Below are positions 3,444-7,341 of a DNA stretch of 50,675 nucleotides, piece after piece (the first letter of the stretch is position 1; every line of letters starts with the position of its first letter). The notes below the pieces were generated by a model that saw only the letters and a program-made list of their open reading frames with translations, ran no database searches and had not been told where the DNA came from. The DNA is from Pilibacter termitis. Its GTDB lineage: Bacteria; Bacillota; Bacilli; Lactobacillales; Streptococcaceae. The stretch is from NCBI RefSeq assembly GCF_900167335.1, contig NZ_FUXI01000018.1, forward strand, positions 13,971-64,645. Direction: 5' to 3'. The translations under genes and the position numbers were made by a program.

Positions 3444-3731
3444 TTATTGTTTGGTTTTTCCGAATAACAAATCCAGAACGCTTATGATAAGAAGGGCTGC
3501 AAGAAAACTAAAGTAAATGCTCGAATATTGCGTAATACCAAACCCTTCATTTGCACGGTAAAGGAAAACGATAATTGCCAAAATTGCCAAGCAGACAAGA
3601 TTTAGCGGAATAAAAAACCACAAATTTCCATTTTCTTTTTTTGCGAGATAATACAAAAATGCACCCAATGAAAAAACAATCCACGCAAATCCCACCAATA
3701 CAGCAAACCAATAAATAATAAAAGGTACCAT
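3444..3731 (-). CDS. Small three-helix membrane protein, unknown function
   Basis: 95 residues with three hydrophobic segments (about 5-28, 38-60 and 70-90), short charged loops (AKKENGN) and a basic C-terminus (GKTKQ). The start is supported by GGAGGAATTTAAATG. It has its own terminator and no operon partner. I do not recognise a family; the composition suggests an inner-membrane protein. Confidence 0.75.
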   Translation of the reverse strand: MVPFIIYWFAVLVGFAWIVFSLGAFLYYLAKKENGNLWFFIPLNLVCLAILAIIVFLYRANEGFGITQYSSIYFSFLAALLIISVLDLLFGKTKQ

Positions 3732-3843
3732 TTAAATTCCTCCATTTTCTAATTAGCAAAATTGCTACTTTTATTCTATCATGAAAACGTCAGAAAATGA
3801 ATTTTCTTCTCCTTTGAATTTCTTTAAATCCCTCAAATCACCA

Positions 3844-3871
3844 TTGAATTTCTTGAAAAAATATGTATAAT
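3844..3871 (+). promoter_or_regulatory. Promoter of the small RNA at 3878
   Basis: TTGAAT, 16-base spacer, TATAAT, followed by AGAGAGTGTAAACAG. A very similar stretch (GAAAAAATTGCGTATA..AATAATAGAGAGTAACAG) lies inverted at the far end of the locus near 4155-4190, so the two outward ends of this module carry related promoter sequences that point at each other. Confidence 0.75.
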
Positions 3872-3877
3872 AGAGAG

Positions 3878-3977
3878 TGTAAACAGGTGCTGCTAACACC
3901 TTAGCGTTTACGGCTATCGTTTTTCGATTAGCTAGGTACAGTATTAGTGGATAAGCCCTTATTTACGGGGCTTTTTT
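3878..3977 (+). ncRNA. Candidate antitoxin-like small RNA
   Basis: A transcript of about 100 nt is predicted between a strong promoter (3844-3871) and a terminator (AAGCCC/GGGCTT stem at 3953-3973, then T5). It contains two further stem-loops: GTAAAC...GTTTAC enclosing GGTG...CACC at about 3880-3912, and GCTATCG-TTTTT-CGATTAGC near 3913-3932. Its 3' end overlaps the end of a convergent 32-codon ORF. Short repeats shared with the opposite transcript's leader (CTTAGCGTT at 3900-3908 and CTTAGCAGTT at 4078-4087) could allow pairing in trans. The layout matches par/Fst-type type I toxin-antitoxin loci; identity is inferred from layout only. Confidence 0.6.
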
Positions 3978-4057
3978 GTTTCCACAATAAAAATCGTTAA
4001 TGCCTTGACTAACTCAATAGCCAATACAAATTTTACGATTTCAAATAGTGTTTCCAC
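3959..4057 (-). CDS. Candidate type I toxin peptide, 32 residues
   Basis: The ORF begins with GTG at 4057, directly after an in-frame TGA, and is preceded by a strong AGGTGG site eight bases away. The peptide is 32 residues: acidic N-terminus (METLFEIVK), hydrophobic centre (FVLAIELVKALTIFIV) and basic tail (ETKKPRK). Length, hydrophobic core and charged tail resemble Fst/Ldr-type membrane toxins, although the proline and glycine of classical Fst are missing. The stop codon lies inside the terminator hairpin shared with the convergent small RNA. The leader of about 115 bases starts near an AT-rich GCGTATATT promoter-like site at 4170-4182. It is too short for routine gene callers. The toxin role is inference. 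Confidence 0.55.
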   Translation of the reverse strand: METLFEIVKFVLAIELVKALTIFIVETKKPRK

Positions 4058-4298
4058 TCAAGCACCACCTCTCAATACTTAGCAGTTAGCACCTCGCTTT
4101 TTTATTTCTCTTTTCCTTGCAAGGCCGAGGACTTACCTAACTTCTACTTGATTGCTGTTACTCTCTATTATTAATATACGCAATTTTTTCGTGATTTGGA
4201 TAAAATTTTTCTCGCTACATTTTCCTTGAAAATAATAGATAAATTCCTTCGTTTATGCTATTTTTAATAAGGAAAATAAAAATACACAGGAGAATTTT

Positions 4299-5273
4299 AT
4301 GAACGGAATCTTTCAATTTATTACAGAAAACCTATGGTTTATTTGCACGATTTTGACCATTTTCACGTGGGGTGCAGGAGAATTTTTTTACAAAGTCGGA
4401 AACGACTATGAAGATGATTATAGTAGTAGCCGAACGGTTGTAATGGTCGGATTGTTTTTTGGCTTATATGTGCTTGTCTACTATGTGATGATTCAACACT
4501 TTTCATACGATTGGTCGAGCTTTTTGACTTACTTGCCTGTTTCAGCTGCTTACATCATCTCTATGTGGCTTGGGTATATCGGTCTTCGCTATTTAGAGGT
4601 GTCAATTGTTGGTCCCGTTTCTAACGCAAGCGGTGCAGTTTCTGCACTATTTCTTGTCTTATTTGCAGGGCAAAAGATTTCTTGGCTGGCATGGGTGGCA
4701 ATTATTCTTGTCACACTTGGGATTTTGATTATTTCTCGAGGAGAAGACAGCGAAATGAAAGAACGTGCGGAAAATGCAGAAAATGTTGAGGAAGAAAAAC
4801 GTTATCGCATTGGAGCAATTGCAATTTTGTTTCCGATTGGCTATATGATTTTTGACTCGCTCGGCACATTTTTTGACGGAATTGTCCTTGATGCTCATGA
4901 GTTAACCATTTTTGGCAACACAATCCATTGGGCATTAGATGAGGACCAAGCACAGATGAGTTATATGTTGACATTTTTCTTCTTGGGACTCCTCGTTTTC
5001 TTGTGGCTAACTTTTGTCAAAAAGCAAAAATGGAGTTTCGGTGGCGAAAAAAGTCGAGCAACGGCTGCAATTTTGGAAACGATTGGGCAAGTATTTTATG
5101 TGTTTGCTATGACAGGTGCTAGTGTACTGGCTGCCCCGCTTATCGCAAGTTATGCCGTGTTTTCCGTTGTTTTAGGACATATTTTCCTAAAGGAACGCTT
5201 GAAACCTTTAGCATATGTCGCAGTCATTCTAGTGGTTATTGGTACAATTATCATTGGTGTTTACGATTATTAA
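4299..5273 (+). CDS. EamA/DMT-superfamily transporter
   Basis: 324 residues with ten predicted membrane helices in two halves of about 150 residues, separated by an acidic cytoplasmic linker at about 150-168 (EDSEMKERAENAENVEEEKR). The repeat pattern, and conserved small-residue helices such as VSIVGPVSNASGAVSALF and GASVLAAPLIASYAVFSV, fit the drug/metabolite transporter superfamily. The substrate is unknown. It is the first gene of a likely three-gene unit with chorismate mutase and NiaR, so an aromatic or nicotinate-related compound is possible but unproven. Start ATG follows AGGAGAATTTT. Confidence 0.85.
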   Translation: MNGIFQFITENLWFICTILTIFTWGAGEFFYKVGNDYEDDYSSSRTVVMVGLFFGLYVLVYYVMIQHFSYDWSSFLTYLPVSAAYIISMWLGYIGLRYLEVSIVGPVSNASGAVSALFLVLFAGQKISWLAWVAIILVTLGILIISRGEDSEMKERAENAENVEEEKRYRIGAIAILFPIGYMIFDSLGTFFDGIVLDAHELTIFGNTIHWALDEDQAQMSYMLTFFFLGLLVFLWLTFVKKQKWSFGGEKSRATAAILETIGQVFYVFAMTGASVLAAPLIASYAVFSVVLGHIFLKERLKPLAYVAVILVVIGTIIIGVYDY

Positions 5274-6220: not shown

Positions 6221-6571
6221 TTATGCTTTGTGATTTTCCCTAAAGAAAAAACAAATCTTCATCCCTACAAGAGAAGGGATGATAAGCAAGATGAAATAAA
6301 ACAATAATATCTGCCTCTCTGCTATTCTACTCCAATTAACTACTAATACCTCAATTGAAAATATAACAAAATGAAGAAAAAAGTATTTTAATTGAGCATA
6401 TTTTCGAGGTTTATACAATAAAGAAGAAAGCACTGGCACAAGTGACGAAAAAGCAATAAGCGAGAAAACAATAACATCTTCTTTTGCCAAACTTTTGAAA
6501 CTTACTAGTGCCGCAACCAATTGTATCGCAAAATAGTAAATCATTAATTTTTTTTGTTTATCAAACTTCAT
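6221..6571 (-). CDS. Four-helix membrane protein, possible immunity protein
   Basis: 116 residues with four hydrophobic segments (about 10-28, 33-52, 62-82 and 88-110) and basic ends. Its start codon overlaps the stop of the upstream secreted-protein gene by one base (6571), so the two are translationally coupled. Small multi-helix proteins directly behind a secreted hydrophobic peptide gene are often immunity proteins. There is no sequence signature that proves this. Function unknown. Confidence 0.7.
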   Translation of the reverse strand: MKFDKQKKLMIYYFAIQLVAALVSFKSLAKEDVIVFSLIAFSSLVPVLSSLLYKPRKYAQLKYFFLHFVIFSIEVLVVNWSRIAERQILLFYFILLIIPSLVGMKICFFFRENHKA

Positions 6572-7341
6572 TATCCAACCTCAATATAACCATTATTTCG
6601 TTTCCTATCTATAGAATCTATCCAACGTGCAATAAGTAATCCTGGGTTTAATGCTTTCGCAATAGTATCAATCAATCTAGCAATTCCTGTAATTAATCCC
6701 CCAGATATTCCTAAGGCGAGCAACTTATTTTTTATTTTTCCAAGAAGATTATCTTTGATCCACTTGCTAACAACTTTTAATCCTTTCTTTTTCACTGCTG
6801 TTACAATTGATGTCCCAGCTCCACCAGTAAACATAAAGACCAGTCCTCCTATGAGTATGTTTATACACGCAGCAAGCGTATTCACCGACATCAAGCGAAA
6901 CCATCTTGCTTGTATAGGTGATTTTTTCCCACTCCCCATAGTAAACAATAATCTTTTTATATTGTCACCCTCATTTTGTAACTCCTTTTTAGTAACAAAG
7001 AGTTTTCCTGTCCTTTTTAAACTTTTTTCCGCCTCTTCTACAACCAATTGATGAAAGAACTTTTTTTCCTTCGCATTCATCTTCTTTTCATCAAAATTAG
7101 TCTGTTCTAGATTAACCCCTTTATACTCTGAAAAACTTCCTTCTTTTTTTAAGTATTGAGAGGTTTCTTCTTGAAAACCGAATGTTTGAAGTGCTTGCTC
7201 AATTTTCTTATCTACCGATTGCTTTGAGCTTATTTCGATTTCTTTTGCGTTAACAACGGAAAATGCAGTTGGAACCGTTAGTGCACACATATTAGCAACT
7301 ACTATCATACCAGCTATCATTTTTTTCTTCAAATTTTTCAT
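6571..7341 (-). CDS. Secreted protein with hydrophobic C-terminal half, bacteriocin-like
   Basis: 256 residues. A clear signal peptide (KKKMIAGMIVV...VVNAKE, cleavage near residue 33) is followed by a charged, helical region to about residue 145, then a glycine-rich hydrophobic and amphipathic region (about 150-235: ILIGGLVFMFTGGAGTSIV, LLALGISGGLITGIARLI) with lysine-rich stretches between. This resembles long pore-forming bacteriocins or toxins, but no named family is recognised. AGGAGG lies nine bases before the ATG. M element M1 sits 36 bases upstream and has probably displaced or replaced the native promoter. The co-transcribed four-helix protein may provide immunity. Confidence 0.75.
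   Translation of the reverse strand: MKNLKKKMIAGMIVVANMCALTVPTAFSVVNAKEIEISSKQSVDKKIEQALQTFGFQEETSQYLKKEGSFSEYKGVNLEQTNFDEKKMNAKEKKFFHQLVVEEAEKSLKRTGKLFVTKKELQNEGDNIKRLLFTMGSGKKSPIQARWFRLMSVNTLAACINILIGGLVFMFTGGAGTSIVTAVKKKGLKVVSKWIKDNLLGKIKNKLLALGISGGLITGIARLIDTIAKALNPGLLIARWIDSIDRKRNNGYIEVG

Follow-up and report, generated by a model that had tools for sequence, protein, structure and literature searches.

A convergent candidate type I toxin-antitoxin locus in Pilibacter termitis, with a second copy that has near-identical control arms and an unlike peptide

Convergent type I systems and the locus

A convergent layout, a small hydrophobic peptide and duplication are typical of type I toxin-antitoxin modules. 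The Fst peptides of par modules carry a signature of W before the charged tail and a PXXXG motif, which is set out together with the other par features in the available part of PMC7472228. Modules of the txpA/ratA type are defined by an antitoxin that overlaps the 3′ end of the toxin mRNA and have no basis in start-site repeats, according to the accessible text of PMC4147584; that text, with the accessible part of PMC3531473, also gives the features of txpA/ratA and bsrG/SR4, including an overlap of about 120 nt for bsrG/SR4 (PMC4147584), and SR6 is given as 100 nt long in the excerpt available. The type I peptides of Clostridioides difficile are 30-56 aa long with a lysine-rich tail, and share no homology with the type I toxins known from other bacteria, as stated in the available part of PMC6563280. 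For three type I pairs of E. coli, strongly conserved promoters and ribosome sites are reported (accessible text of PMC11264685). A type I module with kept control arms but a replaced toxin peptide is nowhere described in the available parts of the literature that we searched, which were mostly papers open without subscription.

Here we describe a convergent module of about 377 bases at positions 3836-4211 of a stretch of Pilibacter termitis DNA of 50,675 nucleotides, the whole of which is called the window (G000:C11:13971-64645, from a 2.79-Mb genome in 59 contigs). We think it rather probable that this is a lineage-specific chromosomal type I toxin-antitoxin module, repressed by a 3′-overlapping antisense RNA, the toxin of which has been exchanged between copies. 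Both transcripts, the toxicity, the pairing and the decay are what we infer from the DNA. The coordinates of the features are collected in Table 1.

Table 1. Features of the window module, with the Hol_Tox peptides of the same genome (C numbers are contigs)
Feature	Position	Strand	Description
Left conserved arm	3836..3936	+	convergent RNA (5′ half) and its promoter; 96-98% identity with C50:20128-20228
Antitoxin promoter	3844..3871	+	TTGAAT-N16-TATAAT, 10/12 consensus matches
Predicted antitoxin RNA	3875..3978	+	about 100 nt, both ends inferred; folds
SL1	3879..3911	+	stem-loop holding CUAACACCUU, able to pair with the toxin ribosome site; pairing tests weak
SL2	3912..3933	+	second stem-loop; folds
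Intrinsic terminator of antitoxin RNA	3953..3977	+	stem 3953-3973; overlaps the ORF end
Toxin candidate ORF (peptide A)	3959..4057	-	32 aa, GTG start; hydrophobic, basic tail KKPRK; METLFEIVKFVLAIELVKALTIFIVETKKPRK
Translation initiation region	4055..4076	-	SD GAGGTG at 4066-4071; 19/22 identical to the C50 copy, ORFs unlike
Right conserved arm	4132..4211	-	presumed toxin promoter and mRNA 5′ end; 95-97% identical to the C50 copy
Toxin-side promoter/leader segment	4155..4177	-	resembles antitoxin-side segment 3861-3886, inverted orientation
Hol_Tox peptides L101-L105	C37:42255-42356; C43:52569-52667, 52957-53055; C16:56161-56253; C30:41799-41900		two close together on C43

The module and its second copy

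The module is flanked by a gene for a 95-aa hydrophobic protein without a Pfam match over cut-off (3444-3731, minus strand) and, on the other side, by the gene of an EamA transporter (4299-5273, plus strand). Just upstream of the latter, an AT-rich segment at 4262-4300 gives a weak Rfam match to the pntA sRNA (E 0.34, below gathering) that is probably due to chance. Further along, 6221-7341 on the minus strand encodes a 256-aa protein with a signal-peptide-like start and a glycine-rich hydrophobic stretch, without a Pfam match over cut-off, and then a 116-aa hydrophobic protein; our guess is a bacteriocin-like secreted protein and its immunity protein.

Within 3732-4298, the ORF of peptide A is the sole SD-led ORF of 20-70 aa. 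A 32-codon minus-strand ORF with a GTG start and a strong ribosome site had been proposed from an earlier sequence-only reading, and it is confirmed here with a spacing of 8 nt between SD and start. The hydrophobic character and basic tail also proposed at that time hold as well: among 1000 dinucleotide shuffles of the window copy, three gave an SD-led hydrophobic ORF and none gave one that had the basic tail too, with criteria (SD, hydrophobicity, basic tail) that were fixed only once the peptide was known. The same reading had described a convergent RNA of about 100 nt on the plus strand with a promoter, two stem-loops and a terminator over the ORF end, and all of these sequence features were found. 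The promoter scan lists 3 promoter-like sites where 2.1 are expected, and the terminator scan one terminator where 0.2 is expected. The fold is modest, since the window antitoxin RNA (107 nt) reaches a z of -1.17 and 24/200 shuffles fold as well. Because the consensus promoter scan of the window copy has no entry for the toxin side around 4150-4200, the toxin promoter is a presumed one, placed by the conserved right arm and its likeness to the other arm. A simple pattern scan of the window copy finds no terminator in the toxin direction.

A complete second module is present in the same genome at C50:20128-20559. Its homology to the window copy ends just outside both promoter regions, and the region between the arms measures 242 bases against 198 in the window. 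The best ungapped match between the arms is the translation start region, with a score reached by 6/2000 shuffles; the likeness of the coding DNA is no better than that of shuffles (888/1000), and peptides A and B, encoded by the window and C50 copies, give no alignment. Peptide B is MNVDTVLLVSILALVAGVLQCVKAYFDFLASRQNYNHKKRRFPPKRKRR, 49 aa long and strongly hydrophobic with a basic tail, and is preceded by the same SD at the same spacing of 8; an ORF of this type (SD-led, hydrophobic, basic-tailed) arises in 1/1000 shuffles. The C50 copy holds two further SD-led ORFs, which are less hydrophobic and without such a tail, and the strongly hydrophobic basic-tailed SD-led ORF occupies the same place in both copies. 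The antitoxin promoter of the C50 copy reads TTGAAC-N16-TATAAT. Here too the ORF end extends over the convergent RNA's terminator; this terminator, a hairpin and then T6, differs in sequence from that of the window copy and is missed by the simple pattern scan. SL1-SL2-terminator is the minimum-energy fold of both antitoxin RNAs, with terminator sequences that are unlike; the C50 RNA folds better than its shuffles (z -2.58), and its centroid structure is without SL1. The unlike peptides would have arisen through exchange of the central part, or else gene conversion would have homogenised the arms. In both full copies a toxin-strand gene is found just past the antitoxin promoter (3444-3731 in the window; L026 4281-5015 for C50), which toxin mRNA read-through could reach.

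A third, truncated copy, at C50:27408-27480 on the minus strand (L026 12409-12481), has retained SL2 and the terminator, and its final codons read ..VETKKPHK stop. A few bases separate its start from the stop codon of a preceding gene that we take, from sequence likeness, to encode a DHH-type phosphoesterase, and it may now serve as the terminator of that gene. Around a partial match on contig C23, inspection by eye of 150 bases to each side revealed no second module. Two full copies and one fragment are what is seen in the whole genome.

Relatives, distribution and origin

The search of related genomes put forward in the sequence-only reading came back empty for peptide A, with none of 334 other family genomes giving a match at E<=0.01, and the accompanying covariance search gave matches at chance level: with an RNA model run under strict filters against 395 order genomes, the best E outside the own genome was 0.012. 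Peptide A has no match in plasmids, Pfam, NCBIfam, PHROGs or PADLOC either. Against four Hol_Tox peptides its best alignment score was reached by 37/2000 shuffles, and against two peptides of genome G268 by 88 and 117/2000, so that kinship to either group is unconvincing given several comparisons. A DNA search of 335 family genomes (two candidates scored per genome) did not locate the arms outside the source genome, nor did searches of plasmids and phages, or of viral contigs by exact patterns. Three kinds of match were set aside: a single pattern run against genome contigs gave one match, in a Sumerlaeota MAG, that appears fortuitous and lies in unrelated sequence; short matches of 155-361-base queries in many genomes are, among the matches listed, promoter- or terminator-like words; and what was matched in the sibling genome G001 looks like an ordinary terminator. 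Besides the source genome, one genome of the genus was among those listed, and it is 59% complete.

Peptide B has weak relatives in 2/334 other family genomes, comprising three ORFs of G268 and G262 (L121, L122 and L123), with E of 1.9e-4 to 9.7e-4 for one genome, which scales to about 0.06-0.3 for the full set of genomes. We take the kinship with the two G268 peptides as real because their alignment scores of 77 and 78, where shuffles average 31, were each reached by none of 2000 shuffles, under a null in which hydrophobic part and tail were shuffled apart. The three ORFs are SD-led by eye, and downstream of them lie a terminator and a promoter of the opposite strand; TTGACA and TATAAT are exact in two of these promoters, and the third reads TATACT by eye. 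As predicted from these elements, the layout is the same convergent one, and the peptides, 33% identical to peptide B, share with it the basic tail with RRFP; their control sequences are not recognisably similar by eye to those of the window and C50 copies, and the terminator lies past the stop codon, not across it. The peptides of L121-L123 are about 52 aa long with a tail KKPRRFPTRRR, and each fetched stretch contains this motif twice, probably as tandem copies. Neither G268 peptide belongs to a Pfam family; the one tried matches no NCBIfam family, and searches of phages, plasmids and viral contigs did not return it. PHROG matches were phrog_19794 for peptide B (E 0.017) and phrog_34117 for a G268 peptide (E 0.036).

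Neither peptide A nor peptide B matches a known toxin family, as would be expected if, instead of a toxin-antitoxin pair, the locus encoded a regulatory RNA that converges on the gene of a small membrane peptide, not toxic and of dual or regulatory function. We regard this as unlikely, because type I modules as described in the available parts of PMC7472228, PMC4147584 and PMC6563280 have this layout, this kind of peptide and such duplication, and five PF16935 (Hol_Tox) peptides over the curated cut-off are also encoded in this genome.

In genome G010, which belongs to another genus of the same family, orthologues of both neighbours (EamA 77% identical; the 95-aa gene 56% over 93 residues by tblastx) are adjacent with no module between them, and the spacer is about 208 bases against 567 here. 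The G010 spacer has diverged and the exact junctions are unreadable. Since a second copy exists, gain of the module in the source lineage appears likelier than loss, a comparison that rests on one relative. In G010 (78% complete) a search with the neighbour gene of the C50 copy gave nothing at E<=1e-15, and matches elsewhere reach at most 40% identity, which leaves this copy with no empty site to compare. An empty site, together with inverted likeness near both ends, sharp homology limits, two full copies and a fragment, would also suit a small mobile or repeated element of MITE-like kind, the ends of which carry promoters by chance and the ORF of which is incidental. However, just two full copies and one fragment were seen in the genome, no convincing target-site duplication was found (5- and 6-nt AT-rich words only), the start region is conserved while the rest of the centre is not, and relatives of peptide B stand in a convergent layout, all of which makes such an element decidedly unlikely.

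Kind of module and proposed control

The locus was compared with two sets of modules. The Fst set consists of 14 of the 15 loci from a PF13955 search (L028-L041; 5 pass the Pfam cut-off and 9 lie below), the remaining one (L042) being dropped as a weak match inside a 420-aa frame, and the Hol_Tox set of five loci of the same genome. The PF13955 profile search of the genome gave one match, which lies outside both modules; peptides A and B returned no Pfam family at E<=10, and the peptide sequence has no W and no PXXXG. The direct repeats CTTAGCGTT/CTTAGCAGTT, which the sequence-only reading had considered for pairing in trans, are present at a level expected by chance, as the longest exact word shared between start region and antitoxin is 6 nt in the window (287/300 shuffles) and 7 nt in C50 (125/300), whereas 11/14 Fst loci have repeats of 10-16 nt at <=5/300 shuffles and the other three do not. 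When gaps are allowed, 12/14 Fst loci lie at <=18/300 and 0/5 Hol_Tox loci do (64-231/300), against 184/300 for the window and 7/300 for C50, but there the match sits upstream of the antitoxin promoter. The likeness of the outer promoter regions noted in the earlier reading does exceed that of shuffles (2/300): the 5′ regions of both RNAs are alike in the window (2/300) and in C50 (4/300), values that are non-independent as the arms are duplicates, and likewise in 3/5 Hol_Tox loci at <=8/300 (the others at 23 and 190) and in 0/14 Fst loci (lowest 12), a criterion observed in this analysis and not a published one. The fstAT antitoxin RNA (RF01797) has no match at the locus, which is a weak test in that 0/58 genomes reach the cut-off, even among those with Fst peptides. 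Of the par/Fst convergent promoters, the ORF and the antitoxin promoter are present and the toxin-side promoter is presumed; in place of a shared bidirectional terminator, the simple pattern scan found a plus-strand one only.

Pairing was followed by energy. The antitoxin 5′ half against the whole leader is at chance in the two cognate pairs (70/200 and 102/200), as it is against the last 48 nt of the leader (77/200 and 35/200). The duplex of SL1 with the start region beats shuffles for C50 (3/500, 5/500), which is the only clear winner among six comparisons with the short start region, and is at chance for the window (281/500). Scanned along each toxin RNA, SL1 has its best site at the start region in both copies, a position that shuffled SL1 takes in 63/300 and 77/300 cases, and energy and position jointly are reached by 16/300 shuffles for each copy; by energy, SL1 of the window copy suits the C50 start region as well as the C50 copy's own SL1 does. 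Such contacts, with the convergent layout, the small hydrophobic peptide of about 32 aa and the GTG start known from pAD1, could be taken for a genuine par/Fst module whose peptide is unusual, in which RNA II blocks translation through start-site direct repeats and a shared bidirectional terminator, but this is very improbable, and membership was rejected on the missing Fst signature, repeats at chance level where DRa/DRb-like ones would stand and the lack of a terminator found in the toxin direction, next to the missing fstAT match and the chance-level SL1 duplex of the window.

The par/Fst layout proposed earlier is supported as a convergent type I layout, mainly through the C50 paralogue, the relatives of peptide B and the empty site in G010, and is unsupported as an assignment to par/Fst, on signature, repeats, the toxin-direction terminator scan and the 5′ regions of the RNAs. 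Judged from sequence features, the architecture resembles TxpA/Hol_Tox-type modules more than par/Fst because start-site repeats are absent and the 5′ regions of both RNAs are alike, with peptides that lie outside PF16935. As in TxpA/RatA and Hol_Tox modules, a toxin mRNA would converge with an antitoxin RNA that starts downstream of the toxin stop; the overlap with the ORF end is about 20 nt from the predicted RNA ends, and in C50 SL1 may contact the start. The arms share only short weak matches with the Hol_Tox loci, and in 4/5 Hol_Tox terminators the stem is by eye flanked by an A-run upstream and a T-run downstream, whereas the window module has a T-run on one side only. By description, BsrG/SR4 and YonT/SR6 of Bacillus subtilis are alike in their 3′-overlapping convergent antisense antitoxin, and CD2517.1-RCd8 and others of C. 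difficile in their convergent overlapping antitoxin and hydrophobic N-terminal part.

We therefore return to the type I module with a 3′-overlapping antisense RNA. A minus-strand promoter would give an mRNA, with a predicted start near 4160, that has a leader and encodes a small membrane-seeking peptide, and a convergent plus-strand promoter, nearer to consensus, would give a structured RNA of about 100 nt from near 3877. As the predicted transcripts overlap, the 3′ parts are complementary, over about 20 nt within the ORF and up to 104-112 nt if the mRNA reaches the antitoxin start (ends predicted). Read-through of the toxin mRNA is plausible because no terminator was found in that direction, and if the mRNA does read on, the antitoxin RNA would be fully antisense to its 3′ part. 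The resulting duplex could lead to RNase III decay, to lost translation or to both, compare txpA/ratA and bsrG/SR4, and SL1 of the antitoxin may additionally contact the ribosome site. We hold that action as a 3′ antisense RNA would be the main mechanism, with contact at the start site as a possible addition.

A further step, which we put forward tentatively and with some doubt, is that the outer parts form a reusable shell (promoters, antitoxin 5′ domain, leader and start region) into which unrelated peptides with their own terminator-forming tails are swapped. If true, a type I antitoxin RNA could switch its client toxin by recombination, and its antisense part would change automatically along with the ORF end. 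The module itself is one more type I system, and what is unusual is the paralogue pair. With arms 95-98% identical and peptides unrelated, this pair allows a direct test of the specificity between antitoxin and toxin RNAs: on whether antitoxin A silences toxin B, cis-antisense overlap predicts no, and shared pairing of SL1 with the start region predicts yes. Fast-changing peptides make such modules easy to miss by peptide similarity; the conserved part here is the control arms and not the peptide, which offers another route to finding modules.
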